DNA from: a virus
Reading direction: 5' to 3' (one strand)
Length of the DNA: 64,000 nt
IMG/VR virus record: IMGVR_UViG_3300022200_000031
Coordinates: 1 to 64,000 of that record
This document shows, one piece after another, positions 3,273-64,000 of the stretch. Under the pieces are notes generated by a model. It was not told where the DNA came from and ran no database searches. It saw only the letters and a list, made by a program, of their open reading frames with translations. Within the stretch, counting starts at the first letter, position 1; every line of letters begins with the position of its first letter. The position numbers and the translations under genes were made by a program.

Positions 3273-4193
3273 ATGTTATCTTTCAAAGACTTTCTCGTCG
3301 TCGAACTGAAACCAGGCGAAGACGAATATATTAAATACCGCAACCAGAAGCGCCGCCGTGGTGCCATGGATGAATCTTTCACTGCCGATGTTATTCATGA
3401 GCTTCTTTCCGAAGAGAAAGATCTCAGCAAGCTAGTTGTACTTGCACGCCTCGGTCTTGTTGATAATGTCTCAAACTTCAAGCGCGTCCTCAAGAAGCTA
3501 GATTCAGAAAAGGTCCTCACCCCAGAAGAGCGTGAGGTCATCTATTCAACCTTCAATAAATTTGCTGAAATCGTAACAAACGATAATACCATCTACCAGA
3601 AGGTTCGTAAGATCGTCAAGGAAGGTACAGAAGAAGATCTGGCCGAGGGTCCTCTTGTTGTCACCAAAGCTCAGGCAAACAACATGCTGATGAACTTCAT
3701 CAGAGACGCTCTCAAGAATGGTAAGGAAGCTGATCTCGAGAAACTTGCTGCTGCAATTGGCAAGAAGATGACCGTTAAGGGTCAGAAAGTAGTCTTTGAG
3801 GGTGAAGAGATCAATGTAGACGAGTTGTTTGAAGCTGTCCTGGATATCCGTACTCGCATTAAGAAGAAGCAGCAGCTTCGTAAGATGAAGTCAAAGATTA
3901 AGATGGGTCGTCGCCGCGCAATGATGAAGAGAGCGAACCCAGAGAAATTAAAGCAGCGCGCTCAGAAGAGAGCTCGTATGGCTGTATTCAAAAAGCTAGC
4001 TAAGGGTAAGAGCAAAGATGAAATGTCTTACTCAGAGCGTAAACAAGTTGAAAAACGCGTTGAAGCAAAGAAGAGCCTGGTCAAGCGCCTAATGAAGAAG
4101 ATACTTCCAAAGGTGCGTAAGGACGATCAGACTCGTAAGCGTATTGTCGGTCCTGCACCAGATACTCAGGCCTCCAGACCATCTGCAAAGTGA
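3273..4193 (+). CDS. Very basic putative internal virion protein
   Basis: A 306-residue protein. Its N-terminus MLSFKDFLVVE is a variant of the targeting sequence of the neighbours. Residues about 35-190 are mixed helical. From about 195 the chain is extremely Lys/Arg rich (KKKQQLRKMKSKIKMGRRR and similar) up to the C-terminus, which suggests DNA condensation or neutralisation inside the capsid. Comparable basic proteins occur in cyanophage-type T4 genomes. The gene lies 7 nt after the previous stop and belongs to the same transcription unit. No catalytic motif seen. Confidence 0.55.
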   Translation: MLSFKDFLVVELKPGEDEYIKYRNQKRRRGAMDESFTADVIHELLSEEKDLSKLVVLARLGLVDNVSNFKRVLKKLDSEKVLTPEEREVIYSTFNKFAEIVTNDNTIYQKVRKIVKEGTEEDLAEGPLVVTKAQANNMLMNFIRDALKNGKEADLEKLAAAIGKKMTVKGQKVVFEGEEINVDELFEAVLDIRTRIKKKQQLRKMKSKIKMGRRRAMMKRANPEKLKQRAQKRARMAVFKKLAKGKSKDEMSYSERKQVEKRVEAKKSLVKRLMKKILPKVRKDDQTRKRIVGPAPDTQASRPSAK

Positions 4194-48759: not shown

Positions 48760-48971
48760 TAGATCATAAGATGATCCCTGTTGAAGATCATCCAAATCTT
48801 TTCAGGGATCCAGTTACAAATGCGATTATAAATATGGATACAAGATCTGCTGCGTCTAACAGAAATGCTAGAATGAAAGCAAAGCAACGCGATGAGGACA
48901 TTGAAAACCTCAAGAATGATATGGCAGAAATTAAAGAATTATTGACCCAACTTTTAGCGAGTAAGAACTAA
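48756..48971 (+). CDS. Small conserved coiled-coil virion-operon protein
   Basis: A 71-residue protein: HPNLFRDPVTNAIINMDTRSAASNRNARMKAKQRDEDIENLKNDMAEIKELLTQLL. The pattern (x-L-x-R-D-x-x-T-x-A-I-I-N-x-D, then a coiled coil) recurs in T4-like phages between structural genes. Overlaps both neighbours (ATGA upstream, shared A downstream). Function unknown. Confidence 0.65.
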   Translation: MIDHKMIPVEDHPNLFRDPVTNAIINMDTRSAASNRNARMKAKQRDEDIENLKNDMAEIKELLTQLLASKN

Positions 48972-51886
48972 TGGCAATTGTTATCGTACCAAACACAGAC
49001 ACTTTTAACCAATGGCGTGTAAAGACAAACACCATTGGTTCAGGTGTTGGTGACCTTTCTACTCTGATCAATGATGCTGTTCTAACATATACAGGTCTTA
49101 CTGGCCAGAATGAAGGAACATTCACTGGTACGCCTGCCACATTCACAATTGTGAATAATCAGGGTACATATGAAGTAACCGTTACCAATGGTGGTGATGG
49201 ATACGCAGTTGGTGATACTGTGTTGATCACCGGTGGCCAGATCGGTGGTGTTGATGGTGTAAATGATGCAACGATCACTGTTGCGACTGTTGACGCACTT
49301 GGAGTTGGTGAGGTACAGACTGCTACTGTAGCTGGTACAACCACCGCTAACCTCGTTGCACAGGTAAACAACCTTAGAGATGATGTGGGTGACACCAACA
49401 CTGCACTACAAACTAATGCTGCTCAGGTACGCGATGCGATTAACGAATTTGAAGAAGTATTGAGAGGTGCTGGTGCCAATAACTACACCCTCAACACAGA
49501 TGCTGACAACTTGGTTGCTGCTATCAATGAGCTGGAAACAGCAGTTCGTGGCACTAATATAGATTACAACCTTGATACCACATCTAATGATTTGGTATCT
49601 GCAATCAATGAATTCCAAGCTGAGTTGGGTCTGGTAGAGAGTTTTGATGCCACAGGCACTTCTCCTATTGCGGACGCTAATCACACAATTACGTACGTTA
49701 ATATTGGATCGACGTTCGAGGCCGCTGTTAATGCACTGAAAGATAAAGTCGACTACCATTCAGATGAACTTGGTGGTAAGATGTCTGCAGACTATGATGG
49801 TCCTGAGACAAACCATATGGATGCGCTGAACGCATTGTACAATGCATCTTCTCTTGGTACCTTGGATAATACATACGTTCGTCGTTCTGGTACTCTTGAC
49901 ATGACTGGTATGTTCCAGCTTCATCAGGATGGTATCACTTCAAACGCAAACAGCATGCTTCTGAAGACTGGTGCTGCTGATGTGACTGCTATTACAATCA
50001 GTGCAACAAATCAAAATGTTGGTATTGGCGGTGGTGTTGGCACACAGAAGTTAAAGGTTACTGGTGGTGTTAATGCTACCACTGGTTTCTATTATAATGG
50101 AGATGATACAGACACCCGTTATATCCGTGCTGATGTTGGCTCTGCACAGACCCTTGAAATTGATACGACGGTTACTGCATCCATTAATCTCGATCCTGGT
50201 GCAGGTGAAACAGTAACAATTGATGGTTCAATTGTTGCTAGTGATAGCTATACTTTCCTTGAATGGTTCCAGGACACAGTTGGTGATATGTTTACCGGTA
50301 ACCAGGAGTCTGGTGGTATCAGTGGTGTATACAATGATGGTACTGGCAAGATCACTCTTGCAATTGCAGATGATGGCCACAACCACGTCGTAAGTAATAT
50401 TGATGATTTCGATAACGAAGTTAAGGATCGTGCTGCAGCAATGATCACAGGTGCTACTCACTCTGGTCTTGCTACAACATACGATAATGTAAATAATCGC
50501 CTCACATTCAATGTCAATGACCCTGTTCTAACTATCTCTGGTGAAGCAACTGGTTCAGCCACAATGACTAACCTTAGTAACACCACTATTAGTGTTACCC
50601 TGGATCAGGAAGTCATTCAGGACAAAGCAGCACCATTACTGTCTAATGGTGTTCATACTGGTCTGTCTGCTACTTATGATGATGCAAACAACCGTATCAA
50701 TCTTGCATTGACTGCTGACCCAACTATTGCACTTTCTGGTGATGTATCAGGTTCGGTAACCCTTACCAACCTTGGTACCCAGACATTTACAATTAATGCT
50801 GTAGTTGCTGATGATAGCCACAATCACGTTATTGGTAATATTGACAACTTCACTGAAGAAGTACAAGACATTGTTGGTGCCATGGTTGCTCCAACAAACG
50901 TTGAATCTGGTATTACTGTAACATACGATGACAATACTGGTAAGTTGAACTTTGATGTTAATGATCCTACCATTACATTGAATGGGGATGTAACGGGTTC
51001 TGCTACAATGTCGAACCTTGGTTCAATGACCATCACTACTACTATCGTCAACGATTCACACACCCATGATGATCGTTACTATACAGAATCGGAAGCAGAT
51101 AGTCGCTTCTTTAATGTGTCTGGTGACACTATCACTGGTAGCTGCACTGTGCAGGGTGATATTTACCTGGGTTCAGGTGCTTCATCCTCGCTCCAACATT
51201 TCTGGGACAATAACAGTAGCACCTGGCGTACATTCCAATACGATCAGAGCAACTGGTATGTTGAAGATGATGGCGGCACAAACCGTCTGTTGGTTCATGC
51301 TGGTAACCTAGGTTCATTTACATTCCCATCTGCATCAAACGCGAACACCCTTGATGGTATTGACTCCTCACAGTTCCTGCGTTCAGATGCAAATGACACT
51401 GCAACCGGTAACCTAACCACTTCTCACTTATATGCTAGATCCAATGGTGCATATGATCTTGGTACAGGTACAGTAAGATATCGTACAATGTATGCTGGTA
51501 CATTTAACGGTACAGCAACCACCGCACAATACGCTGACTTGGCAGAGAAATACCTTGCTGATGGTGAATATGTTGCCGGTACTGTTATTGCGGTAGGTGG
51601 TGAAGCTGAAGTGACTGCCGCCACGGACGAAATTGCCCATTCAGTGATTGGTGTTGTATCAGAGAATCCAGCATTCCGAATGAATGAAGATCTCGAGAAT
51701 GGTACCTACATTGCACTGAAGGGACGTGTTCCTGTCCGCGTACAGGGAGATGTTAAGAAGGGGGACCGTTTGGTTGCCTCATCAACTCCAGGTGTAGCTG
51801 AAGCAAATAATGCTATGGGAATGTGGTCATTTGCTGTTGCCTTAACAGACAAAGTAGGGGATACTGTAGAAGCTGTTATTCTTTAA
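48971..51886 (+). CDS. Tail fibre protein
   Basis: A 971-residue fibre. It has an N-terminal attachment domain, repeated helical-linker motifs with period about 35 (NNLRDDVGDTNTALQTNAAQVRDAINEFEEVLRG, LVAAINELETAVRG, LVSAINEFQAEL), beta repeats with ATYDDANNRINLALTADPTIALSGDVSGSVTLTNLG-type units (about 490-690), HDDRYYTESEADSRFF, and a terminal knob (YADLAEKYLADGEYVAGTVIAVGG to the end) common in phage fibres. It likely recognises the host receptor. Confidence 0.85.
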   Translation: MAIVIVPNTDTFNQWRVKTNTIGSGVGDLSTLINDAVLTYTGLTGQNEGTFTGTPATFTIVNNQGTYEVTVTNGGDGYAVGDTVLITGGQIGGVDGVNDATITVATVDALGVGEVQTATVAGTTTANLVAQVNNLRDDVGDTNTALQTNAAQVRDAINEFEEVLRGAGANNYTLNTDADNLVAAINELETAVRGTNIDYNLDTTSNDLVSAINEFQAELGLVESFDATGTSPIADANHTITYVNIGSTFEAAVNALKDKVDYHSDELGGKMSADYDGPETNHMDALNALYNASSLGTLDNTYVRRSGTLDMTGMFQLHQDGITSNANSMLLKTGAADVTAITISATNQNVGIGGGVGTQKLKVTGGVNATTGFYYNGDDTDTRYIRADVGSAQTLEIDTTVTASINLDPGAGETVTIDGSIVASDSYTFLEWFQDTVGDMFTGNQESGGISGVYNDGTGKITLAIADDGHNHVVSNIDDFDNEVKDRAAAMITGATHSGLATTYDNVNNRLTFNVNDPVLTISGEATGSATMTNLSNTTISVTLDQEVIQDKAAPLLSNGVHTGLSATYDDANNRINLALTADPTIALSGDVSGSVTLTNLGTQTFTINAVVADDSHNHVIGNIDNFTEEVQDIVGAMVAPTNVESGITVTYDDNTGKLNFDVNDPTITLNGDVTGSATMSNLGSMTITTTIVNDSHTHDDRYYTESEADSRFFNVSGDTITGSCTVQGDIYLGSGASSSLQHFWDNNSSTWRTFQYDQSNWYVEDDGGTNRLLVHAGNLGSFTFPSASNANTLDGIDSSQFLRSDANDTATGNLTTSHLYARSNGAYDLGTGTVRYRTMYAGTFNGTATTAQYADLAEKYLADGEYVAGTVIAVGGEAEVTAATDEIAHSVIGVVSENPAFRMNEDLENGTYIALKGRVPVRVQGDVKKGDRLVASSTPGVAEANNAMGMWSFAVALTDKVGDTVEAVIL

Positions 51887-51895
51887 GGAGCTTCT

Positions 51896-52645
51896 ATGAT
51901 TGGTATTGTTGGTTATGGATTTGTGGGTAAGGCTGTCGAATACGGCTTTAGCAAAACAGATCATTTTATTGTCGACCCCCTACATTTTCCAGAACACTCT
52001 CTAGCTGATCTAGTTGAGCACAATCCCGAAGCGATCTTTGTGTGTGTTCCTACTGATGATGGGGATCAGTTTGCTACATTAACTGATACTCTTGATCAGA
52101 TTGCAGGTCTAGGCTACAAGGGTATTGTAGTAGTCAAATCTACTGTTCTTCCAAAGTACCTTGAGGGGTACAATGTTGTCTACAATCCTGAGTTTCTTTC
52201 TCGCCGTACTGCATTTGAAGATTTTGTAAAACCACACGTCTTAGTGATTGGTGGCCAGCAATCTAAAGCAAAGCGTGTATTGGAAATGTATATGAACTAC
52301 TCTGATGTTCGTTGTGATAACATCTTCCTCACTTCAGTTAATGCTGCCTCAATGGTTAAATATATGTTCAACACATACTATGCAACCAAACTAACCTTCA
52401 TGAATCAGATGTATGATGTGGCGCAGCAGGCTGGTGTACATTGGAATGATATCAAACAGATTCTTGGAAAACATCCATGGGTAGGAACATATCATCTTGA
52501 TGTCCCTGGTTATGAGGGGCGAGGTTTTAGTGGTCCATGTCTTCCCAAGGATACAAAAGCCCTTGCTGCTGAATATGATGTTGAATTGCTACATAAGGTG
52601 TTGGAGTTAAACGACAAATACCGAGATGAAAACTCTACTAGTTGA
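51896..52645 (+). CDS. UDP-glucose/GDP-mannose dehydrogenase-like protein, short
   Basis: A 249-residue protein. GYGFVGKAVEYGF is the NAD Rossmann G-x-G-x-x-G; VVVKSTVLP, YNPEFLSRRTAFEDF, SMVKYMFNTYYATKLTFMNQM (catalytic Lys/Asn helix) and GFSGPCLPKDTKAL (catalytic Cys) match UDP-sugar 6-dehydrogenases. The usual C-terminal UDP-binding domain (about 130 residues) is absent, so sugar binding may differ. SD AAGGAG. It opens the modification cluster and overlaps the first radical-SAM gene by 20 nt. Confidence 0.85.
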   Translation: MIGIVGYGFVGKAVEYGFSKTDHFIVDPLHFPEHSLADLVEHNPEAIFVCVPTDDGDQFATLTDTLDQIAGLGYKGIVVVKSTVLPKYLEGYNVVYNPEFLSRRTAFEDFVKPHVLVIGGQQSKAKRVLEMYMNYSDVRCDNIFLTSVNAASMVKYMFNTYYATKLTFMNQMYDVAQQAGVHWNDIKQILGKHPWVGTYHLDVPGYEGRGFSGPCLPKDTKALAAEYDVELLHKVLELNDKYRDENSTS

Positions 52646-53630
52646 ACTTTCAGAACAATGCAATCTCGATTGCTCGTACTGTGGTGTAAACAAAAGATCA
52701 AAACAGAAAGTAAATCTTGATCATGTTCTCGAGCAGTATAGTCTCCTGCGTTCAAAATACCCCGACGAGAAAATAAAGATAGACTTCTTCGGTGGTGAAC
52801 CTTTGTTGCAGCTTGATAGAATTAAGTCTATTATTGAGGCTACAGAGAACGACCCCAATCTTGAATATTTTATGCCAACTAATGGTCTTGTTTTAACACA
52901 AGAAATGGCGGATTATCTGATATCAAAGAATGTAAGAATGTCACTATCGTTTGATGGACTCTGGCAGGACGACAACCGAAAGCAATTATCCGGTAACGGC
53001 ACTCTCACCAAGTATATGGCAAAGAGTGATCTATTTAAGTCTCTCCCACTAGAATGTCATACTATGATCACTAGGGGAAACTATAATCTTCTTGAAAACC
53101 ACCTTTTTATCCAGGACTTAATCGGAAAAAATTCCGATCAAACGCTTGTCCGTGACAGAAATATATGGGATAATGACAGTGTAGATAAACTAAAGGCTGG
53201 TATCACTGAGTTGTTTGAGTGGTATAAAAGACATCCAGAAAAAGAGATGCCGGGGTTGATTAAACATTACCTTAGCCATATAGTAAGGTATAAGTATAAG
53301 AAGGTAGAGCTGAATACCTGTGGTGCTGGTGAGAAGATGATCACCGTTGCAGACGAAGACAAGGTTCTTCCCTGCGGTAGGTTTAGAAACGAACCAGACA
53401 CTATTGCTAGTATTCCTATCTACACAAAAATGTCTGAGTGTGAGACATGCGAAGTGAGACACTACTGTAAGAAGGGGTGTCTGTATGAACAGATACACAA
53501 CGGTGGACCTATTAAGGAGCTGTGTGACATCTACAAGCATATCTACTCAGAAGAATTTAATATGATCAAACAGTTGAAGAATGATCAGCACTTTGTAGGT
53601 GTATTGAAAAAGGAAATTATGGATGCTTGA
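52626..53630 (+). CDS. Radical SAM/SPASM maturase-like enzyme 1
   Basis: A 334-residue protein. C12-NLD-C16-SY-C19 binds the SAM [4Fe-4S] cluster; FFGGEPLL is the GGE motif and SLSFDGLW a core strand. The C-terminus carries a SPASM-type set: NTCGAG, LPCGRF, CETCEVRHYCKKGC, ELCDIY, enough Cys for two auxiliary clusters, as in anaerobic sulfatase and RiPP maturases. Begins inside the dehydrogenase end. Target unknown; see the 54966 product. Confidence 0.88.
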   Translation: MKTLLVELSEQCNLDCSYCGVNKRSKQKVNLDHVLEQYSLLRSKYPDEKIKIDFFGGEPLLQLDRIKSIIEATENDPNLEYFMPTNGLVLTQEMADYLISKNVRMSLSFDGLWQDDNRKQLSGNGTLTKYMAKSDLFKSLPLECHTMITRGNYNLLENHLFIQDLIGKNSDQTLVRDRNIWDNDSVDKLKAGITELFEWYKRHPEKEMPGLIKHYLSHIVRYKYKKVELNTCGAGEKMITVADEDKVLPCGRFRNEPDTIASIPIYTKMSECETCEVRHYCKKGCLYEQIHNGGPIKELCDIYKHIYSEEFNMIKQLKNDQHFVGVLKKEIMDA

Positions 53631-53841
53631 TGATAAAGACAAAGCGAATGCATCGTTGTTTAATGCTGCTGCCCATCTAACAGAGGCAGCAAAGTATATG
53701 TCTGACATGGATAAGGGGATCTCACTAAAGATCTTTGCCATGGCAGATAAGATCCTTTCCATTATTGATGCCCCCCAACCAAAGTTATCAAATAAAGAAC
53801 TGGATGATATTCTGGAGGAGATTCTAAATGCAGAAGACTAG
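53623..53841 (+). CDS. Small helical protein between two maturases
   Basis: A 72-residue protein, overlapping both radical-SAM genes (8 and 14 nt). NASLFNAAAHLTEAAKYMSDMDKGISLKIFAMADKILSIIDA and an acidic end (KELDDILEEILNAED). No Cys, so not an obvious thioether precursor. It could be a carrier/recognition protein (RRE-like role) or a regulator; no homology recognised. Confidence 0.5.
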   Translation: MLDDKDKANASLFNAAAHLTEAAKYMSDMDKGISLKIFAMADKILSIIDAPQPKLSNKELDDILEEILNAED

Positions 53842-54964
53842 AGGACCGCTGGTAATTGAGCTGACTACCAGTGCATTATGTGATCTGAATTGCACATATT
53901 GCTTTGAGGGTGAGAAGGTTAACAAGCAGAGGCTTGAGGACTTTGACACACTGTATGCTAGGATTGATGAACTAACTAGTGACCCATGGTTTAAAGAAAA
54001 CTACAATGGATTCACATTCTCATTTTGGGGCGGTGAACCGACACTTAACCACGAGTATATTGTCAAAGTAATCAATCACTTCAAGGACCATCCTGCAGTA
54101 GGTCAGTTTCATATCTACACCAATGGTTTCAACTTCAAGAATATGAGTCGAATTATTGATAATGTAGACACAACCAAACTGCATATTCAAGTTTCATATG
54201 ACGGTCAAATTACTAATGATATTTTCAGATTGACGAACAAAGGAACCTCCACAACTGAACAAGTACTAAATACCTTTGACAAATTGGCCAAAAGAGGTAT
54301 TGATCTTGCAATAAAGAGTACACTACCCACTACTTCTATTTTTAGTCTGTATGATACATGGCTAGAATTTGAAGGTTTGGTTAATAAATATAAGGATTAC
54401 CCAAACGTAAAAATTAACTTTGCGCCAACGATTGAGTATGCTATGGGACACACACCATTTGGTGGGGAAACGGATCATGCAGTTGCAAAGTTTGAAAAGC
54501 AGATGAAAAAGATCGCCAAAAAGGAGATCGAATTCTACAAGGAGCATGGAAGGTTCTTGTGCTCATGGTTTGGTAGCTCTGATAGTAAGACAAACTGTAC
54601 TGCTGGAGCTAGTATGATGGCAGTAGATGTGGACGGTGGAGTGTATGCTTGCCATGGTGCTCTCTACTCTCCTCAGAAGGAAGACATGAAATCAGCAACG
54701 ATTTTCGATAATGATTTCACTGTTAAGGTAAAAGACTTTGCGGACAAGCATGTTCCTGCAAGGCATAGGATTAATGACATCTGTAAGGGATGTGTTGCAA
54801 CATACTGTGCTGTATGCCCTGTTGCGGTATATGACGCAAGTAAGAAGGTTGACCATCTAGATAGATGGACAGATAGATGTGTGAATGGGTTGTGTAAGTT
54901 CTATAAGGCGTTTGGGCGATTAGATAGAGCTGTACAGCACCATATAAACAACTTGGAGAAGTGA
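53828..54964 (+). CDS. Radical SAM/SPASM maturase-like enzyme 2
   Basis: A 378-residue protein. LTTSALC18-DLN-C22-TY-C25-FEGEK, FSFWGGEPTLN, HIQVSYDGQ. SPASM region: NCTAGASMMAVDVDGGVYACHGAL, then ICKGCVATYCAVCPVAV and DRCVNGLCKFY, closely like anaerobic sulfatase-maturating enzymes (anSME; Cys/Ser to formylglycine) and peptide maturases. Directly precedes, by 1 nt, the Cys-rich fibre-like gene, its likeliest substrate. Confidence 0.9.
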   Translation: MQKTRGPLVIELTTSALCDLNCTYCFEGEKVNKQRLEDFDTLYARIDELTSDPWFKENYNGFTFSFWGGEPTLNHEYIVKVINHFKDHPAVGQFHIYTNGFNFKNMSRIIDNVDTTKLHIQVSYDGQITNDIFRLTNKGTSTTEQVLNTFDKLAKRGIDLAIKSTLPTTSIFSLYDTWLEFEGLVNKYKDYPNVKINFAPTIEYAMGHTPFGGETDHAVAKFEKQMKKIAKKEIEFYKEHGRFLCSWFGSSDSKTNCTAGASMMAVDVDGGVYACHGALYSPQKEDMKSATIFDNDFTVKVKDFADKHVPARHRINDICKGCVATYCAVCPVAVYDASKKVDHLDRWTDRCVNGLCKFYKAFGRLDRAVQHHINNLEK

Positions 54965-54965
54965 T

Positions 54966-55652
54966 ATGACAGTAGGTGTAGTTGACGCTGGTGATAATTG
55001 TACAGCAGCACATTGTATCAATCATGGTACAGGTACCACCACGTGTGTTGAACACCGCAGTACATGCTCAACCAACCGTGCATTGACATTCTCTGACTTT
55101 GCTCAGGGTGGCAACATTACTGCTACCCAGGTAGAGGAAATGAGAGTCAAGATTCGTGATGAGTTGGCTAGATACAACCTTCATGCTAACTACAACTACA
55201 CATTGTACCAGCCAACAGCTATTGGTGCTGGTGGTATTGTGGATGACACTCACTATAACAACCTGAATGATATGATCCGTCAGGCCTACGGTTCCGATAT
55301 CAATAAGGCTGCGGGTCAGCTGATTGATGATGCAGATTGGGATAACTTGATCTCATACTATAATGTGGTTCGCCAAAACTGCATCTGTAACACCGACTGC
55401 TCATGTAATAATGTGTGTGCGTGCCACAATGATTGTGATTGTAACTACAGCGATGAAAGACTGAAGGAGAATATTAAGTATCTTGGTCTGGTAAGTGATC
55501 TGAAAGTGTACAGCTTCAATTATATCTGGAACAAAGCAGAAGAGATGATTGGTGTGATGGCTCAGGATCTCATTGGTACCAAGTATGAGGATGCTCTTCG
55601 TAAAGACATTAACGGATACTACATGGTAGATTATAGTAGGTTGCCACTCTAA
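54966..55652 (+). CDS. Cys-array tail protein with S74 chaperone domain (candidate modified substrate)
   Basis: A 228-residue protein. The N-terminus has a Cys/His cluster (C12, H16, C17, H20, C27, H30, C34). The middle is helical with YNYTLYQPTAIG. Residues 139-159 form a strict array C-x-C-x-x-x repeated: Cys at 139, 141, 145, 147, 151, 153, 157, 159. Then YSDERLKENIKYLG...MIGVMAQDL is a peptidase S74 intramolecular chaperone of phage fibres/tips. Placed between SPASM enzymes and other modification genes; metal binding or Cys modification is inferred. Confidence 0.75.
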   Translation: MTVGVVDAGDNCTAAHCINHGTGTTTCVEHRSTCSTNRALTFSDFAQGGNITATQVEEMRVKIRDELARYNLHANYNYTLYQPTAIGAGGIVDDTHYNNLNDMIRQAYGSDINKAAGQLIDDADWDNLISYYNVVRQNCICNTDCSCNNVCACHNDCDCNYSDERLKENIKYLGLVSDLKVYSFNYIWNKAEEMIGVMAQDLIGTKYEDALRKDINGYYMVDYSRLPL

Positions 55653-56398
55653 TGGAAAAGACAATTACTAAAATCAATGAGGTTCTGTCTGAAAAGTTTG
55701 ACAGAGGTATCTCAATCAGAGTCACCAACACTCTCAGTATTCCTCCAATGGATGATGATAGTCAGTTCTCCATTAAATTTAAGTTTACTGTAAATGGTGC
55801 TGGGTACCGTGGATGGTATCTATCCAACACCGATCGTGCTGAGATAAATGAATTTGTGTATGACACCCTGCACGATGATGTGTTTGTTCTGCCTAATCTA
55901 GTGGACTTTGATGGTAAGTGTTATGCCTTGGTTGGTGATGGTATGATTACTGTTGAGCGTGAAACTAAGGTTCTTATGACCAACGATGTAGCGCCATCCT
56001 CAATTGTAGAGCTGCATGAAATGCTTGAGGACATTGATGTGTCGTCTATTGATATGTCGGATGTATATGACAGACAGGTTGGTTACAACTTCAGTGATGA
56101 AGAATGTATGCTGATGTATACCAACATCCCTGGTAATGTTCTCAGTGATGGTAGCGGTCGTTATACACTAATTGACTTAGATGTATTTAATATTCTCCCA
56201 ACGCGTTTCAAATATTGTCCTGCATTCTCTCTTCTATGTGATAGGATTGGTTTTAAGCAGTCTCGCCTTGAGGGATTCTGCGATAAGTATAATCTGGACC
56301 CTGAGATGTTCCTTTCCAACTACAAGCAGTTTCTTCAATTTGAGAAGGACATGGGTTCTGATGATGAAAAAATGATGGAGATTTTAACGGAGAAATAA
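55652..56398 (+). CDS. Hypothetical protein of the modification cluster
   Basis: A 248-residue protein, acidic. N-terminal beta half (QFSIKFKFTVNGAGYRGWYLSN; VLPNLVDFDGKCYALVGDGMITVERETKV), helical end (CDRIGFKQSRLEGFCDKYNLDPEMFLSNYKQFLQFEKDM). It starts on the last base of the previous gene's stop. No family recognised; possible fibre-assembly or virion protein. Confidence 0.5.
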   Translation: MEKTITKINEVLSEKFDRGISIRVTNTLSIPPMDDDSQFSIKFKFTVNGAGYRGWYLSNTDRAEINEFVYDTLHDDVFVLPNLVDFDGKCYALVGDGMITVERETKVLMTNDVAPSSIVELHEMLEDIDVSSIDMSDVYDRQVGYNFSDEECMLMYTNIPGNVLSDGSGRYTLIDLDVFNILPTRFKYCPAFSLLCDRIGFKQSRLEGFCDKYNLDPEMFLSNYKQFLQFEKDMGSDDEKMMEILTEK

Positions 56399-56400
56399 TT

Positions 56401-57003
56401 ATGATGGTATATGATTTAGCTATTGTGGAGGACCATGGTCACCACTATAGAGTGATTGGTACAACAAAGAATACATTAGACCGTATGGCCGGTGAAGACT
56501 ATATTAAAGTGTCATCGATGGCGTATGAAATGATTTGGCCTGCATTGCGAGATGGTAAGGAAGTAAGACTTCCTAAGGTTCTCCATACCAATGAAGTACT
56601 TCCCGGTGAAGTACAAATTATCGAACATAGTCCTGATGATGCAGATGCAGCACGCACTGCAGCACTGATCAAGGTACGCTCGCTTGTTGTCCCAGAGATG
56701 ACTAAAGAGTCAGGATTCACTCTTTATAACTTCATGATGATGAATAATGAGTTGGCAAGTGAAGGATACTTCATTACTAATAATAATCGTGAAGAAAAGT
56801 ACATTGAGATCATCGAAACAGGCAATGAAAGGCTAATTGAAACCCTTGAGATGTACCTAGAAGCTAAGGATACCCTTGACCGGGCGGCCTCAATGAAAGT
56901 TCGGTTGGATAAGTTCCGTAAAGAAATCGGCCGAATGGATGCTGTAGATGATATTAAGACGGCTACCGACAATTTCTTGGCTACATTCTATACCTCAAAG
57001 TAA
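56401..57003 (+). CDS. Hypothetical protein of the modification cluster
   Basis: A 200-residue protein. N-terminal alpha/beta part (MVYDLAIVEDHGHHYRVIGTTKNTLDRM; GEVQIIEHSPDDADAARTAALIKVRSLVVPEM), C-terminal long helices (LETLEMYLEAKDTLDRAASMKVRLDKFRKEI). No Cys. Function unknown. Two nucleotides after the preceding stop, so the same transcript. Confidence 0.5.
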   Translation: MMVYDLAIVEDHGHHYRVIGTTKNTLDRMAGEDYIKVSSMAYEMIWPALRDGKEVRLPKVLHTNEVLPGEVQIIEHSPDDADAARTAALIKVRSLVVPEMTKESGFTLYNFMMMNNELASEGYFITNNNREEKYIEIIETGNERLIETLEMYLEAKDTLDRAASMKVRLDKFRKEIGRMDAVDDIKTATDNFLATFYTSK

Positions 57004-57008
57004 TATGA

Positions 57009-57824
57009 ATGTCCGCTGTTGTATATCACTCAAACGATCATAAGAAGATCAATGGTACTCTCTTCTATTGTTTTGAGTACTATGTACTGCTAAAAAGATA
57101 CATTCCAGGCCTGCAGTATATCCTTCTCAATACTTCCGATGAAGATCTTCAATGGATGAAATCTATCTTTATTGAGAAGTATAACTTTGATCATGCTTAT
57201 CTTAATGACATCACTAACCTAACAAGGCTTACAGATTTTGTTAGGTTGTCGGTTGATAATGTTCTAATCCTTGATATTCATACTTATAGTAGAGTAAAGG
57301 ACTTTCTCGGAAAGGCTCGATCAGTTCGTGTGTATAGTAATGAGGAGCACAACTACCTGAACGCTAAACCCCATCATGTGTTCTATGGGTTCTACGACTA
57401 TCAGACATTCAATAAAAAAACTAGAATCAAATTATATGCTGACATACACAAGAGGTTTCCTAATAAAAGAAACAAAGTGTTTGTTACGTCATTAAATGCA
57501 GACAATGATTATATTGTCAATCAGTTAGGATTAGATCCATCGAAGGTATTTGTAAAAAATCTAAACAGTCACAATGAGAATATGTATGAACAGGTTGGTG
57601 AGATGATCTACTGGCATAGTTCACATACAGATACAAATAACCGAGCAATAGTGGAGGCATACATCCATGATATTCCTCTGACCATACACTTCAATGGACA
57701 CTATCATGATAGCATCTATGAGAGATCTAACACCATTGCTAATGGTGGTTTGCAGGAAATGTTTCTTGATCAGTCTGATATACTAATACAGGACTTCATT
57801 AATGATTGTACAAATACCAAGTAA
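57009..57824 (+). CDS. Glycosyltransferase-like protein, paralog A
   Basis: A 271-residue protein. The order of boxes (GTLFYCFEYYVLLKRYIPGLQYILL, VLILDIHTY, GFYDYQTFNKKTRIKLYADIHKRF, KVFVTSLNADNDYIVNQLG, RAIVEAYIHDIPLTIHFNGHYHDS) resembles GT-B type transferases, the last like the E-A-x-x-x-G-x-P nucleotide-sugar end with the motif weakened. Homologous in layout to the next gene. Acceptor unknown. Confidence 0.5.
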   Translation: MSAVVYHSNDHKKINGTLFYCFEYYVLLKRYIPGLQYILLNTSDEDLQWMKSIFIEKYNFDHAYLNDITNLTRLTDFVRLSVDNVLILDIHTYSRVKDFLGKARSVRVYSNEEHNYLNAKPHHVFYGFYDYQTFNKKTRIKLYADIHKRFPNKRNKVFVTSLNADNDYIVNQLGLDPSKVFVKNLNSHNENMYEQVGEMIYWHSSHTDTNNRAIVEAYIHDIPLTIHFNGHYHDSIYERSNTIANGGLQEMFLDQSDILIQDFINDCTNTK

Positions 57825-58701
57825 GTATGAGCTCTGCCTAACCTACTCTTGGGGTCCTATCGATCAGGGTATGTGTGGACACATATTTGAGTGTATTGAA
57901 TACTACTTCATTCTGAAAGAACATTACAGTGTGTGTATATTCATTCCTGAGCCACTCAGCAAGAAGTTCATAGAGGATACTGTTAGGGACAAGTATGATT
58001 TCACAGAAGAGGAAACAACGGACCTTTTCGATAATACTATCTTTGGCAATCATCCTAAGATTCTGAAGGGAAGTAATGTACTGTTAACGGATGCTGGGTT
58101 TGGAAAGATGACTAACAGACATCTATTGTTTGATAACATCATGGCTTTTCCATGCGCCGATATGTCATTCAAACAAATGGAAGGTATTACTGTATTCCAG
58201 GATGACCGCATGTATGGTACGGATGCCAAATGCACAACCCATCACTATGTAAAAAAGATTCTACTAGATCGTTATAAGACAATTGGTGATAGTGTTATTG
58301 ATACTAACCTTGTATATGCTACTAAGAATGCAAGAGGGCTTGATGAGTCCATCTACACAGAGTTGGAGCAGTACCCAGGAAACTTTCTGCTGTTGACTAA
58401 TACAGAGATTAAGGGTATACTATCCGATCGTTATACACAGGAAGAGATGCCTGTGAAGAATCTATTTGAGAAGTTTAGTACATACATCTATACTCCTGTA
58501 GGAAAGAAGTATGATTGCAGTCCTAGATTCTTGGTAGAATGCAAGCACTATGGTAAAAATGTTATATTCCATAACATTGACTATTGGGATGTTGATCATG
58601 GTTTGAAGTGGAGAGTCTATGACATCGAGTACGATTATGATTCACTACTTCTTAGATCGGATGATAGTATCATAGAATTAATAGGAGACATCATTGGATA
58701 A
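57802..58701 (+). CDS. Glycosyltransferase-like protein, paralog B
   Basis: A 299-residue protein. GHIFECIEYYFILKEHYSVCIFIPEPLSKKFIED parallels the previous protein; KGSNVLLTDAGFG, NLVYATKNARGL and SPRFLVECKHYGKNVIFHNIDYWDVDHGLKWR (E-x-x-x-x-G-x-x-V) continue the GT-B-like scheme. Overlaps its paralog by 23 nt. Tandem duplication with divergence is likely; enzymatic role inferred. Confidence 0.5.
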   Translation: MIVQIPSKYELCLTYSWGPIDQGMCGHIFECIEYYFILKEHYSVCIFIPEPLSKKFIEDTVRDKYDFTEEETTDLFDNTIFGNHPKILKGSNVLLTDAGFGKMTNRHLLFDNIMAFPCADMSFKQMEGITVFQDDRMYGTDAKCTTHHYVKKILLDRYKTIGDSVIDTNLVYATKNARGLDESIYTELEQYPGNFLLLTNTEIKGILSDRYTQEEMPVKNLFEKFSTYIYTPVGKKYDCSPRFLVECKHYGKNVIFHNIDYWDVDHGLKWRVYDIEYDYDSLLLRSDDSIIELIGDIIG

Positions 58702-59296
58702 TTATTGTCTCACTGTAACATATAAATGTCAGTGGCATTGCCCATACTGCATTACTGATACACACTCTAAGAGTATAGAGTATGATCAGGTACTAGACAA
58801 CATTAAAAGGATACCCGATCGTGCTCATGTCTCCCTTAGTGGCGGAGAACCTGGTATGTTACCAACAGGAAAGATCATAGAGGTTATTAATAGACTGCGT
58901 GAGAAGCAATGTGTGGTACAGGTTAATAGCAATGGGTTGATTTTTAAAAGACCCGCTATTGTTGATATGGTGGACTTCATCTTCTACCATTGCAGTGAGA
59001 ACCTGGATATTGATGATGAGGTTGTAAAGGATTACCCTGATAAGACTCAGTACATGGTAGTTGTAACAGACAACAACATTGATAAACTCAGATCATTTTT
59101 GGATAAGCATAATGATATTCATATATCAATTTATGCAGCTAAAGAGGTCCCTGTCAATGGTAAGGTTGGCGAACATCTCAGTAAAAAGAACGCTATCAGA
59201 CTCGTGCGTGAGTTTAAGGATTACATCAAACCAGATGAGGTTCCACACATCCTAAATTTCAATGAGTATACTTTGCAGACAGAACACATTAAATGA
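58694..59296 (+). CDS. Minimal radical SAM enzyme 3
   Basis: A 200-residue protein with TTG start 58694 (AGGAG 6 nt ahead). C12-QWH-C16-PY-C19 and HVSLSGGEPG form the radical-SAM core, then VQVNSNGLIF; no C-terminal auxiliary-cluster cysteines. Such short enzymes usually need partner proteins. Overlaps both neighbours. Confidence 0.82.
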   Translation: MDNYCLTVTYKCQWHCPYCITDTHSKSIEYDQVLDNIKRIPDRAHVSLSGGEPGMLPTGKIIEVINRLREKQCVVQVNSNGLIFKRPAIVDMVDFIFYHCSENLDIDDEVVKDYPDKTQYMVVVTDNNIDKLRSFLDKHNDIHISIYAAKEVPVNGKVGEHLSKKNAIRLVREFKDYIKPDEVPHILNFNEYTLQTEHIK

Positions 59297-60297
59297 TTAA
59301 TAATTATACATTTCCTTTAATTGATAAAGATGAACCTATATGTCAGCGCGCTAAACTTGACACAGGGACTTTCTGTAATTATGAGTGTTCTTTTTGTTAC
59401 TATATTGATCGCCTGCATGAGAAGACAGATCTGGATGTGGTAAAACAGCGTGTGGATTATATCTATGAATGTGGTATCCGCGAAGTAGATCTTAGTGGGG
59501 GTGAATCTTCTGTCCGTACTGATTGGTTTGAGCTGCTGGACTATTGTAAGTCAAAGGAAATGTCAGTCAGTACGGTGACTAACGGATACAAGTTTGCTGA
59601 CCATGATTTTATGAAAAAGTCAAAGGAGCATGGATTGCAGGAGATTCTGTTTAGTGTACATGGGCCCAATAATGACATCCATGATCTTGTAGTTGGAAGA
59701 AAAGGAGCATTTAAGCGAATCATTAAAGCAATTGAGAATGCCCATGATCTAGGAATACTGGTTCGTATCAATTATGTTGTTAATCAACATAGCTACAGTC
59801 TAACAGATGAGTTTGTGTGCATGGTTGATCAGGTGAAGCCATATGAACTGAACTTTCTCACACTAAACTTCTTTGGTTCCGCTAACGAGTATCTACCATA
59901 CAAACTGTCTACTACTCATATCAAACACTGCATTGATATTGTTGACGTTCCTATTATTAATGTAAGGTATGTACCATATTGCTATATGGAAGGGTACGAG
60001 AAGTATGTCTGCAACACGTTCCAGCATATCTATGACAGATACGATTGGAATATGGCAGTGTATGATCAAAGAATAGATCCGGAAGTGTATAAAAAAGATC
60101 CTCTGGATGCATTATATAAGCAAGCGCAGGAAGACCGTAAGCGCATGTACTATAAACCAGAACAATGCAAGGGATGTAAGCATCTCCTAATATGTGATGG
60201 GTTGGAGAATGTAGTTCATGATGATGTAATGCCAACAGAAGGACCAGTGGTGAAGGAGATCAATCACTACAGGAAGGAATACTATGCCAAAGTATAG
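59293..60297 (+). CDS. Radical SAM enzyme 4
   Basis: A 334-residue protein. GTFC28-NYE-C32-SF-C35-YYID, VDLSGGESSVR, SVSTVTNGYKF, EILFSVHGPN. The C-terminus holds PYCYMEGYEKYVCNTF and EQCKGCKHLLICDG, a SPASM/twitch-like Cys set for an auxiliary cluster. Overall like MoaA/PqqE-type peptide or sugar-nucleotide modifiers. ATGA-type overlap with the previous gene. Confidence 0.87.
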   Translation: MINNYTFPLIDKDEPICQRAKLDTGTFCNYECSFCYYIDRLHEKTDLDVVKQRVDYIYECGIREVDLSGGESSVRTDWFELLDYCKSKEMSVSTVTNGYKFADHDFMKKSKEHGLQEILFSVHGPNNDIHDLVVGRKGAFKRIIKAIENAHDLGILVRINYVVNQHSYSLTDEFVCMVDQVKPYELNFLTLNFFGSANEYLPYKLSTTHIKHCIDIVDVPIINVRYVPYCYMEGYEKYVCNTFQHIYDRYDWNMAVYDQRIDPEVYKKDPLDALYKQAQEDRKRMYYKPEQCKGCKHLLICDGLENVVHDDVMPTEGPVVKEINHYRKEYYAKV

Positions 60298-60910
60298 TAT
60301 TCTAATTCCCACTCATAATAGACCTGAACTGTTTCAGAGATGTATTGCCAGTGTACAGAGAGGTATGCTTGGTGCTGACTACGAGATTATAGTTAATAAT
60401 GATTCACGAGATATTGAGGAAGTAGAAAGATATAACATTAAGTACTACTACATGCGCAATGATAATCTTGGTATGATATACAAGTTTCTATTTGATAGAG
60501 CAAACGGTGAGTATGTGTACTACATGGAAGATGATGATATTATGGATCCAAACTTCTATGAGCGCATTAAGTTATTCAACGAGGATATTATGTTTGGCAA
60601 CTATGTTCCTTTTGAATGGAATAAGTCATTCATTGAGTATATGAGATCAAGACCACAATCATCAAAGGAAGATTTCCTGGAAACATTTGATCCACACCAT
60701 TTCCAACTGTGCCAGATTATGTTTCGGAAATCTGCATTGGCAGACGCTGATTTTCCTACCGACAACAACCTACAGAATGATTTCCTTTTATTTGAGAGAC
60801 TGCAGGGTTCGTTTAGAGTAGTAAACAACTTCTTCTATAAACAAACAATTGATGGTGGTGATAATATTAGCTTCAGCTACCTCAATAAGGATCCAAGATG
60901 GACTTCATAA
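60284..60910 (+). CDS. Glycosyltransferase family 2
   Basis: A 208-residue GT-A enzyme. YSILIPTHNRPELFQRCIASVQ is the nucleotide-binding start, IIVNNDSRD and YVYYMEDDDIMDP (D-x-D metal motif), and a DNNLQNDFLLFERL-type C-terminal acidic helix. It lacks membrane segments, so it probably glycosylates a soluble acceptor, possibly a virion protein or a nucleotide-linked sugar. Overlaps the adjacent radical-SAM genes. Confidence 0.88.
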   Translation: MPKYSILIPTHNRPELFQRCIASVQRGMLGADYEIIVNNDSRDIEEVERYNIKYYYMRNDNLGMIYKFLFDRANGEYVYYMEDDDIMDPNFYERIKLFNEDIMFGNYVPFEWNKSFIEYMRSRPQSSKEDFLETFDPHHFQLCQIMFRKSALADADFPTDNNLQNDFLLFERLQGSFRVVNNFFYKQTIDGGDNISFSYLNKDPRWTS

Positions 60911-61818
60911 AGGTATCTGGTGTAGATCATTATGAACAGAGATTGTATGTTCATTGGGATGTAACTACTATTTGTGAGTACAAATGTTCCTACTGTTATG
61001 CTCGCAAACAATACAAGGATCAATGGAATCGTCCTGGAAACTGGGAGGATCACAAATACATTATTGACGAGTTGAGTAAGAGTACACTCCCTGTGTTTCT
61101 TGGTCTCCTTGGTGGAGAACCAACATCCCATCAGAGATACTTTACTTTACTTGATATGATTAATGAGAAAGTACTAACTCATCCAGACTCCAGAATGTAT
61201 ATTACAACCAATGGAGCCAAGAGTACAGAGTTCTTTGATAAGCATAAGACATCTAACGGTAAAACTTATTTCCTTTGGAGTCTCCACCCTGAGTATGCAG
61301 ACTTCGATACATTCTATAACAATGTTCAATTGATGAACAGCAAAGGATACAAAACAAAGATAAATTTGATGCTTCATCCTGGCAAAAGATACTGGGAAAG
61401 ACAAAAGGAATGGTATTATCAGCTATCGGAGCTCCACTATGCTATACTACATCCTCATTTCATCTATCATGGGTTTGATAAGGATGTGAAGTATACAGAT
61501 GAATTCTTTGAGGAGTTTAACTTCCTACAGGATCAGAGAATAAAGGAATTTGTGTTTGAGGATAGTGTAGGAGAGAGTTATATACTTTCCGACTATGAGA
61601 TATTCAAGGGTGGGCATAACCAGTTCAAGGGCTGGCAGTGTTGGCATAATAATTTCGAGATTAGGAATGATGGGTTGATATCCGATCAATGTTTTGATAG
61701 GCAGGGTAGACAAATCACAAAGGACTTCTTTAAGAATATTACAGAGATCGTACCCAGAGTATGTCCACACAACTATTGTAGCTGTGATGGCCTAATGAAG
61801 ATTAGGAAAGAAAAATGA
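60898..61818 (+). CDS. Radical SAM enzyme 5
   Basis: A 306-residue protein. VTTIC26-EYK-C30-SY-C33-YARK, FLGLLGGEPTSHQRY, MYITTNGAKS, FLWSLHPEY. The C-terminus has GWQCWHNN, LISDQCFD, RVCPHNYCSCDG: a twitch/SPASM-like auxiliary-cluster set. Shares the C-terminal plan with enzymes 6 and 7. Function unknown. Confidence 0.87.
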   Translation: MDFIKVSGVDHYEQRLYVHWDVTTICEYKCSYCYARKQYKDQWNRPGNWEDHKYIIDELSKSTLPVFLGLLGGEPTSHQRYFTLLDMINEKVLTHPDSRMYITTNGAKSTEFFDKHKTSNGKTYFLWSLHPEYADFDTFYNNVQLMNSKGYKTKINLMLHPGKRYWERQKEWYYQLSELHYAILHPHFIYHGFDKDVKYTDEFFEEFNFLQDQRIKEFVFEDSVGESYILSDYEIFKGGHNQFKGWQCWHNNFEIRNDGLISDQCFDRQGRQITKDFFKNITEIVPRVCPHNYCSCDGLMKIRKEK

Positions 61819-62708
61819 AAATAATGAATGCTACACGTGAGTACGATGTCCACATCTGTTACGATATTACACTAGCATGCAACAATAGATGTGAGTACTG
61901 CTACTGCCTGGATGACCTTGACAATAAGAAGAAATGGAATGAGGAAACATTCCAACTATTCAAACAGGAACTTGCTAAGCTAACAGATTATAGGGTTCGT
62001 GTGTCTCTTGTGGGTGGAGAACCCCTAGTAATACATGACAAACTACATCGTGTTAAAGAATTACCAATTAGTAGCCTGCAGATCATTAGTAATCTCAACT
62101 TCCCCGAAAGAAACTTTGAAAAGATCCTGACCAATGTAGTGGATGTAAATCCCAACCTACTTGCTGTGTCATGGCACCCATCCTCCAAACTGGATGATGT
62201 TAGAAGGAATATCCTGAAGGCAAAAGAGGCTGGTTTAAATGTAGTGATATCATATCTACTTGATCAGGATAACCTGGATGAGATCTGGGAGGAGGCACAT
62301 TGGGCATTGAATAATGAAATCTGGTTTGTTGTAGACATCATACATACTAATGGGGAAGATAGATTTAAGGATAAACGAAACGCCAAGTATGTTAAACTAC
62401 TCCATCTATCCCAGAGACTGCCCGTAGATCTGCAGATCATTGATCCACTAACAGTTACTATTGATGAAAGCATCTACGATCAGGTTGATATGATGCTGCT
62501 GGATATGAAAGACATCTCTAAGCGATACTACACACAATGTAAACACACTGCATTGGATGTACATTATGATGGTAGCTATGATGTACAATGTAGTCATCCA
62601 TACTCAGGTCATCTGAAGGATGGACTTGAGATCAGAAGCGTGTTTTGTGACAATCACACATGCGATAAAAATGTTACAACTTATAAGAGACTACTAAGAC
62701 GTAAATGA
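61815..62708 (+). CDS. Radical SAM enzyme 6
   Basis: A 297-residue protein. IMNATREYDVHICYDITLAC22-NNR-C26-EY-C29-YC, SLVGGEPLV, LQIISNLNFPERNFEKI, AVSWHPSS. C-terminal Cys: YYTQCKHTALDV, VQCSHPYSG, VFCDNHTCDKN. It is a tandem paralog of the next gene. ATGA overlap upstream and downstream, so strictly coupled. Confidence 0.87.
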   Translation: MKIMNATREYDVHICYDITLACNNRCEYCYCLDDLDNKKKWNEETFQLFKQELAKLTDYRVRVSLVGGEPLVIHDKLHRVKELPISSLQIISNLNFPERNFEKILTNVVDVNPNLLAVSWHPSSKLDDVRRNILKAKEAGLNVVISYLLDQDNLDEIWEEAHWALNNEIWFVVDIIHTNGEDRFKDKRNAKYVKLLHLSQRLPVDLQIIDPLTVTIDESIYDQVDMMLLDMKDISKRYYTQCKHTALDVHYDGSYDVQCSHPYSGHLKDGLEIRSVFCDNHTCDKNVTTYKRLLRRK

Positions 62709-63622
62709 CCAAGATAATGAACGCCCACAATGAATATGTTGTGGACCTACACTATGATATTACATTGGCATGCAACAACCGTTGTAGTTACTGCTATGCC
62801 CTGGATTATCTTGACAACAAGAAGAAGTTTAATGAGGAAACATTTGGCCAGTTAAAGGAAGCGTTGGTACAGTTCCGGAAAGATAATCCTGAGTACAAGA
62901 TAAGGCTAACATTGTTGGGCGGTGATCCTTTTGTGATTGAGAACTTTAGTAGAGTGAAGGAACTTCCTGTTGATAGCGTTGAGATCTTATCCAACCTCAA
63001 CTTTCCCAAGAGACACATTGATAAGATAATGCCAACTCTGCAGAGCATGAAATGTTTTGTCGCTGCATCATGGCATGAATCATCTGATATTGAATTGGTG
63101 AAATCAAATGTCCTAAGAATGAAGGGGGAGGGTATTGATATTGGTATTTCCTTCCTTCTTGATGATAAGAATCTCCCGTGGGTGTACGAACATGCCCTCT
63201 GGGCAATCGGTAATGACATTCCCTTTGATGTGGATATTATACGCGACAAAGATAATAATGATTTATTTACTGACACAGATGATGCTCGGTATGGGTCAAT
63301 GTTAATTAACTCCAGGCGACTACTTGTGTCCTCTGCAGGTGAGGAAGTGTACAACACTATTGACGATCGTCATTTTAATGTATATGATATGTACAAGTAT
63401 GATCTAAAGAATATCTCCAGTCAATACTATACAGAATGTAAACTATCTGCTCTGGCAGTTAGATATGATGGTACAATCAACTCCCAGTGTGGCTACCATT
63501 ACAAAGATCACATATCTAACGGATTAAAGATCCCCAAAGTTTTTTGTGATAATAGGACATGCTATTGCAACACCACCACATACAAAAGACTCCTAAGACC
63601 AAAAGCGGGTGCCAAGGTATGA
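62705..63622 (+). CDS. Radical SAM enzyme 7
   Basis: A 305-residue protein. DITLAC23-NNR-C27-SY-C30-YALDYLDNKKKFNEETF, TLLGGDPFV (E of GGE replaced by D), EILSNLNFPKRHIDKI, AASWHESS, then YYTECKLSALAV, SQCGYHY, VFCDNRTCYCN. Collinear with the previous gene over its full length. The GGD variant is unusual for SAM binding and may mark a changed function. Confidence 0.87.
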   Translation: MTKIMNAHNEYVVDLHYDITLACNNRCSYCYALDYLDNKKKFNEETFGQLKEALVQFRKDNPEYKIRLTLLGGDPFVIENFSRVKELPVDSVEILSNLNFPKRHIDKIMPTLQSMKCFVAASWHESSDIELVKSNVLRMKGEGIDIGISFLLDDKNLPWVYEHALWAIGNDIPFDVDIIRDKDNNDLFTDTDDARYGSMLINSRRLLVSSAGEEVYNTIDDRHFNVYDMYKYDLKNISSQYYTECKLSALAVRYDGTINSQCGYHYKDHISNGLKIPKVFCDNRTCYCNTTTYKRLLRPKAGAKV

Positions 63623-64000
63623 TGCTAGAATGGGAATGCATCCTAGAGTGCAACTACAAGTGCTCATATTGCTGTAGGTTTAATGGACCGGCTGGTGTGA
63701 CTGGTCCTATACGATACGAGAAGGATAAGGAGAAGGTTTTTGCTTTCCTTAGTAATCTGAAAGAAAAGTATCCAGACTCAGAGTTGTTTGTCTTTGGTGG
63801 GGAACCTTTCGTTCATCCATTCATTGAGGATATTGTTGCTCATCTTAATAGAATACAGATGCCATTTGTTATACAATCTAATTTCACATTATATGAAAGG
63901 ATGTATAATCTACTAAAGAAGGAAAACTATCCCCTACAGATATCTCTTCATCCAGATGATATACAGGATGAGGAAGAGATGCTCAGACAGCTGGCAGTGT
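63619..64000 (+). CDS. Radical SAM enzyme 8, 5' part
   Basis: Begins at ATG 63619 (ATGA overlap) and runs off the right edge after 127 residues. LEWECILEC11-NYK-C15-SY-C18-C, ELFVFGGEPFVHPFI, FVIQSNFTLYERM, LQISLHPDD: a complete N-terminal radical-SAM core. The cluster therefore continues beyond the window. Confidence 0.85.
   Translation, partial: MMLEWECILECNYKCSYCCRFNGPAGVTGPIRYEKDKEKVFAFLSNLKEKYPDSELFVFGGEPFVHPFIEDIVAHLNRIQMPFVIQSNFTLYERMYNLLKKENYPLQISLHPDDIQDEEEMLRQLAV

Follow-up and report, generated by a model that had tools for sequence, protein, structure and literature searches.

A radical-SAM enzyme family in phages is paired with cysteine-array proteins and may cross-link them

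What do the radical S-adenosylmethionine (rSAM) enzymes that crowd some phage genomes act on? This question is raised by a gene cassette in IMGVR_UViG_3300022200_000031, a virus record of 78,847 bases, of which bases 1 to 64000 make up the window, the whole 64,000-base stretch of DNA analyzed here. A PF04055 search put the number of rSAM genes in the record at nine; eight are within the window, each where an earlier note, made by reading this DNA, had placed it. The phage appears to be a T4-like myovirus because of its matches to baseplate wedge, hub/lysozyme, tail-tube cap and tail-fiber proteins. Coordinates are those of the window unless the record is named, and the genes given by window coordinates lie on the plus strand. 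We found that one of the nine enzymes, here called rSAM-B, belongs to a family that is tied to Cys-array proteins across many unrelated phages. Our preferred reading, to which we give a probability of about 0.6, is that rSAM-B and its neighbor rSAM-A introduce thioether cross-links into the Cys array of a protein with an S74 chaperone and that the other rSAM enzymes and the sugar enzymes of the cassette produce an unusual glycan and attach it.

The gene for rSAM-B (53828 to 54964; PF04055, 46 bits), a proposed Cys-array maturase with a SPASM-like Cys set, is directly followed by a gene that the earlier note overlooked (54966 to 55652). This gene encodes a fiber-like protein, the proposed substrate, with a C-terminal S74 intramolecular chaperone (PF13884, 31.8 bits against a cut-off of 22) in which S162, D163, R165, L166 and K167 are invariant. 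The Cys array, CICNTDCSCNNVCACHNDCDCNYS, immediately precedes the chaperone, which continues DERLKENI. Seven of the eight array Cys residues were invariant across 11 proteins with 42% mean column identity, and conservation is higher in the array than elsewhere in the protein. Both partners are under purifying selection, with dN/dS far below 1 for the Cys-S74 protein (0.174/1.46) and for rSAM-B (0.065/1.81). The protein resembles the phi29 neck appendage in its S74 chaperone, with a weak sequence match to 3gud (E of 0.06) at the SDERxK start, but differs in having a Cys array directly ahead of the chaperone and, in several relatives, a chaperone spread over two genes. At those loci (L164:10103-10914, L165:8166-8971, L178:10150-10704, L182:9128-9951 and L211:11623-12443), the array open reading frame (ORF) ends just after SDxRLKxxIxYi and the remaining domain is a separate gene, in several cases having a ribosome site of its own, which suggests that the chaperone works in trans. 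Programmed frameshifting in this region was considered and dropped because in several loci a separate ribosome site and start serve the second half. Many Cys-array proteins (L168, L170, L174, L192, L199 and others) have N-terminal helical motifs in common (ITAxDINxLRxxIxxExxR), and the five array proteins that we scanned matched no Pfam family.

In a forward test, viral contigs were searched with the DNA pattern for CxC[NDH]xxCxC[NDH]xxDxRLK, in which the S74 start served as a remedy for the low-complexity noise returned by a bare CxC-repeat pattern. All 11 viral contigs recovered encode an array-bearing S74 protein together with rSAM genes. The earlier note had suggested looking for the same gene order in other phages, and the core order was indeed kept in 11/11: rSAM-A, rSAM-B, the Cys-S74 protein, a coiled-coil protein, two glycosyltransferase (GT)-like proteins and the rSAM at 59293. 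The sugar dehydrogenase gene UGD was present in nine of these contigs. Outside the conserved core, the complement of rSAM and sugar genes differs between contigs, with 5 to 12 rSAM genes per record. Exact 8-mer scans of viral contigs with rSAM-B alone or the rSAM at 59293 alone gave no matches, 8-mers being too strict.

The reverse test used an rSAM-B profile that held no array information, and its viral search returned 73 loci. An ORF was scored as Cys dense when it had at least 7 Cys per 30 amino acids (aa), or at least 6 per 30 aa in the cluster counts. Such an ORF lay within 150 nucleotides (nt) of rSAM-B at 47 of the 73 loci, compared with 12/201 for the remaining rSAM genes at these loci and 22/1481 for background ORFs (Fisher P of 5e-23 and 9e-54, respectively, with loci treated as independent). 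When the 11 contigs from the forward test were set aside, the count was 36/62. When rSAM-B proteins were clustered at 40% identity, an array was present within 150 nt in 17 of 24 clusters and within 5 kb in 22. Several of the exceptions (L164, L165, L171 and L172) have thinner arrays in the same framework. The arrays themselves vary among rSAM-B clades (CxCNSD, CTCDCNY, CDCQSRT and CQxxCQxxC, the last repeated at the end of a 1,114-aa protein in L201), and the residue after CxC was Asn at 54% and Asp at 21% of 425 sites, drawn from 60 distinct proteins; the overall frequencies of these two residues were 8% and 7%.

Such an array might instead bind metal or Fe-S clusters while the adjacent rSAM enzymes act elsewhere or are merely coregulated. 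CxC-rich arrays do resemble metallothionein-like ligands, and modification of the array is itself something that we infer. We nevertheless regard metal binding as improbable: the link is specific to rSAM-B among the rSAM genes of these loci, the spacing and number of Cys residues shift between clades in a way unlike a conserved metal site, and the nearest kin of the enzymes are thioether maturases.

By sequence, rSAM-A (52626 to 53630; PF04055, 54 bits) and rSAM-B look like peptide or protein maturases. Both matched PapB in NCBIfam (113.7 bits for rSAM-A and 87.4 for rSAM-B), with a CXXX-repeat maturase at 64 bits for rSAM-B, and the closest solved structure for both was PDB 5wgg (E of 8e-26 for rSAM-A and 3e-17 for rSAM-B), which we take to be CteB. 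The earlier note expected SPASM domains in the cassette; a TIGR04085 signal at E<1 was confined to rSAM-A, rSAM-B and the rSAM at 59293, and just rSAM-A reached the cut-off (27.9 bits against 27, with its neighbors in frame). Its CX2CX5CX3C motif and flanking Cys residues are invariant (C232, C250, C272xxC275x5C281x3C285 and C300). For rSAM-B the score was slightly lower than the cut-off (25.5 bits), and its seven C-terminal Cys residues are invariant. A scan of 84,980 prokaryote species, with one genome per species, found only distant cellular kin (at best about 30% identity over short segments), and most of the 80 loci kept have a SCIFF peptide, GGCGECQTSCQSACKTSC, beside the rSAM gene. Thioether formation on Cys is the likeliest chemistry because PapB is the best curated match, 5wgg is the best structure and the SCIFF peptide accompanies most of the cellular kin.

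A different radical reaction on the array, such as conversion of Cys to formylglycine, epimerization or cyclophane formation, might take place instead. The next-best solved relatives include an anaerobic sulfatase maturase (3e-12), and cyclophane and quinohemoprotein maturases are among the NCBIfam matches. However, CteB scores better with both enzymes, the sulfatase motif CxPxR does not occur in the array, and many regularly spaced Cys residues suit a reaction with Cys as the donor better. We therefore think that a reaction of this other kind is unlikely.

The earlier note described the genes of the cassette as almost all overlapping. Most junctions do overlap or are at most 5 nt apart. A conserved 72-aa gene that it missed (53623 to 53841) fills the 197-nt gap from 53630 to 53828 and overlaps both rSAM-A and rSAM-B. 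Seventeen loci other than that of the window also have this gene upstream of rSAM-B (hidden Markov model E of 2e-34 to 2e-7), and it matched no family above its cut-off. An inspection of the gap for a promoter brought this coding gene to light, and an assignment of the 72-aa protein as an RRE found no Pfam support. The 72-aa protein is predicted to be an accessory to rSAM-A and rSAM-B.

Isolated phages carry related arrangements. The earlier note took one or two rSAM genes to be the usual upper limit in phages, a premise that is incomplete, since CP220 and CPt10, two Campylobacter phages, carry 11 and 12, including a swappable five-rSAM module (PMC2853527), and cassettes have been reported in pelagimyophages (PMC7029224). 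Timms et al. noted a 21-bp repeat in CP220 and CPt10, did not link it to the rSAM genes and proposed that host metabolism is boosted (PMC2853527). These phages (Firehammervirus) have homologues of rSAM-A, rSAM-B, UGD, the coiled-coil protein and a transketolase C half found in the present cassette, and the CP220 rSAM-B homologue (29% identity) lies three genes from gp140, which has the array CDCNYCTCDCNYCTC. In CP220-type phages, rSAM-B and the Cys-array protein are 2.2 to 2.5 kb apart. Unlike in the present cassette, the genes are dispersed, and the gp140 array consists of CTCDCNY repeats without S74. CP220 gp032 (L148:16848-17219), near the portal gene, is a 123-aa protein with 27 Cys residues at about every third position (CxxCxxC). 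Phage IBB_35, with 38 virion proteins, also encodes a Cys-array protein (AEF56812).

In the enterobacterial jumbo phages SPN3US, CR5 and Caitlin, two rSAM genes lie shortly downstream of tandem Cys-array ORFs, which follow a virion protein gene and are partly unannotated or annotated with a gene on the other strand; in SPN3US they lie upstream of gp102 and gp103. These tandem ORFs (L305:3088-3486 and 3500-3901 in SPN3US, L306:3133-3944 in CR5 and L145:5984-6768 in Caitlin) encode 130-aa Cys/Gly/Ser proteins with a leader-like N terminus (MAISLKNIRDRLQ...DCGGTCSWSC...) that belong to phrog_6085, which has no known function. Phage Phass-1 has an unannotated Cys-array ORF, CNTCNVGCDIQCRTCITCNSC, right after an rSAM gene (L303:9162-9683) and open under genetic code 15. 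We treat the jumbo phages and Phass-1 as parallel cases because their rSAM enzymes stand farther from rSAM-B. An rSAM-B-like gene (L223:581-1354) beside a 190-aa ORF with a phage-type array, CNCDDDCSCDYDCCNYNCC, occurs in a contig classed as a Clostridia genome, possibly as part of a prophage.

For the phage of the window, these observations suggest the following scheme. After synthesis of the array protein, rSAM-B and rSAM-A would cross-link its array while this is still unfolded, possibly assisted by the 72-aa protein. The thiols of the CxC[N/D] array would act as donors for several thioether cross-links of the ranthipeptide type, and the acceptor may be the Asn or Asp after the second Cys. 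The S74 chaperone would then drive trimer folding and release itself by cleavage, so that a rigid, cross-linked array would remain at the end of a tail fiber or tip that is exposed. The likely gain would be a tip that resists oxidation and protease or a diversified binding surface. The coiled-coil protein, the two GT-like proteins, the rSAM at 59293 and the variable rSAM and sugar genes would make an unusual sugar and attach it to this same protein of the virion or to the surface of the cell. The closest known systems are SCIFF/thermocellin (CteB) and PapB, in which an rSAM enzyme with a SPASM Cys set likewise adjoins a Cys-rich substrate, as at the 47 of 73 rSAM-B loci; by analogy, rSAM-A and rSAM-B may work in the same way as a ranthipeptide system.

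Several observations weigh against this scheme. The enzymes fell far below the equivalog cut-offs for ranthipeptide maturases (PapB NF047865, 113.7 bits for rSAM-A and 87.4 for rSAM-B against 340; SCIFF TIGR03974, 62.5 and 47.2 against 425), and, because they are far below the cut-off for every curated maturase, the chemistry is argued by analogy. No N-terminal RRE is fused to either enzyme as in CteB, the rSAM core starting at residue 12 in rSAM-A and residue 18 in rSAM-B, though a separate RRE is conceivable, and in place of a short leader/core precursor the substrate would be a phage-encoded, fiber-like protein of 228 aa with an S74 domain. We have not filed the two enzymes under the ranthipeptide families because of these low scores, the absence of a fused RRE and the whole-protein substrate. 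The cluster counts are the safer measure of the pairing because the Fisher tests treat loci as independent. The 8.6-kb contig of one strong rSAM-B (L179, 272 bits) lacks an array, no array adjoins the weak relatives L190, L216 to L218 and L222, and CP220 has its array three genes from rSAM-B and not next to it. The glycan half of the scheme is read from gene content, and the modification of the array, its place in the virion and S74 cleavage are steps that we infer.

The other rSAM genes lie farther along the cassette. Seven of the nine in the record scored above the Pfam curated cut-off, and the genes at 62705 and 65232 were just under it but retain CxxxCxxC and GG[E/D]P; as a set, the genes have the CxxxCxxC motif and the PF04055 scores of the radical SAM superfamily. 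A minimal 200-aa rSAM without C-terminal Cys residues (58694 to 59296; PF04055, 32 bits) occurs in one to four copies in 9/11 related loci. It is followed by the rSAM of the conserved core (59293 to 60297; PF04055, 77 bits; phrog_27238, 4e-92), which has seven C-terminal Cys residues and was found in 11/11. Twitch-like spacing with four or five C-terminal Cys residues is seen in the remaining five, at 60898 to 61818 (PF04055, 42 bits), 61815 to 62708 (47 bits), 62705 to 63622 (27.6 bits; Fer4_12, 22.8 against 22), 63559 to 64000 and on to 64392 of the record (45 bits), and 65232 to 66155 of the record, past the window (25.1 bits). The fourth of these, the eighth rSAM, was placed by the earlier note at 63619, an alternative ATG within the gene; an in-frame ATG lies farther upstream at 63559. 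The genes at 61815 and 62705 are paralogues (48% identity), and the nine genes are not recent copies of one gene, all other pairwise matches being 17 to 29%.

Among these enzymes and around rSAM-A and rSAM-B are the sugar genes. The cassette opens with a UDP-glucose/GDP-mannose dehydrogenase-like gene, UGD (51896 to 52645; PF00984, 58 bits; PF03721, 38 bits; CP220 homologue gp019), which bears out the earlier reading; the protein has only 249 aa. Directly upstream is a tail-fiber gene for a 971-aa protein (48971 to 51886; PHROG long tail fiber distal subunit, E of 7e-17 and 1.6e-16), in agreement with the claim that the cassette is coupled behind the tail-fiber genes. After the Cys-S74 gene come a protein without a recognized family (55652 to 56398), for which no homologue was found at the corresponding position of the 11 related loci, and the coiled-coil-hairpin protein (56401 to 57003; phrog_25260; CP220 gp015, 8.5e-18). 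The AlphaFold2 model of the latter (pLDDT of 86) has long helices and found no convincing PDB match; it is possibly an assembly or escort factor. Of two proteins described earlier as GT-B-like, that at 57802 to 58701 is predicted to have this fold (AlphaFold2 pLDDT of 87; PimA first in Foldseek, probability of 1.00, TM of 0.51, E of 1.2e-3), while that at 57009 to 57824 is GT-like by eye only, with no Pfam or PDB match. The single GT2 enzyme was borne out (60284 to 60910; PF00535, 57 bits). The cluster does run off the window, as claimed, for about 6 kb, and stops ahead of a second set of tail genes. This part encodes the ninth rSAM, a transketolase in N and C halves (record 66094-67301, L001:3394-4601), two epimerases, a PIG-L deacetylase and a polysaccharide-deacetylase-like protein. 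The transketolase C half has a CP220 homologue (5e-31) directly upstream of the CP220 Cys-array protein. An Rfam search of 48 to 64 kb gave no matches.

With UGD upstream and glycosyltransferases, epimerases, transketolase halves and deacetylases downstream, all nine rSAM enzymes might belong to one exotic-sugar pathway that alters the host surface or the virion, the Cys-array protein being just a neighboring fiber gene. The position of the cassette resembles the host-recognition cluster of pelagimyophages, a variable island among tail-fiber genes that has glycosyltransferases, lipopolysaccharide genes and rSAM cassettes, and in which we found no Cys-array substrate or modification described (PMC7029224). 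Yet the rSAM-B/array pair is kept in loci without GT-like genes, the family of the GT at 57802 occurs in just 28/40 strong loci, and SPASM-type Cys sets point to peptide substrates. A single sugar pathway is thus a quite remote prospect. The earlier note had proposed a virion protein or a surface glycan as the target; in our preferred reading both would be targets, divided among the genes, with rSAM-A and rSAM-B assigned to the Cys-array protein by synteny and the remaining rSAM enzymes, placed among the sugar genes, fitting a sugar pathway.

Searches of the open-licence PubMed Central literature turned up rSAM-rich phages but no pairing of an rSAM gene with a Cys array. Many rSAM genes per phage are already known, and what appears to be new is the rSAM-B/Cys-array pairing and its spread. 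It is an evenly balanced question whether this pairing marks a widespread class of phage tail proteins whose Cys arrays receive covalent, non-disulfide cross-links from dedicated rSAM/SPASM enzymes, as protein-sized relatives of ranthipeptides in virions; the class would take in T4-like phages, Campylobacter phages and phages with SCIFF-like repeats, along with the precursor-like arrays of enterobacterial jumbo phages such as SPN3US. If so, the puzzling abundance of rSAM genes in phages, on record since 2010 and ascribed to host metabolism, would gain a role, and a set of unannotated Cys-array phage proteins would be explained. Virions would contain a new covalent chemistry, and rSAM enzymes would act on large proteins. 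The function of phage rSAM enzymes would become directly testable in cultured phage.

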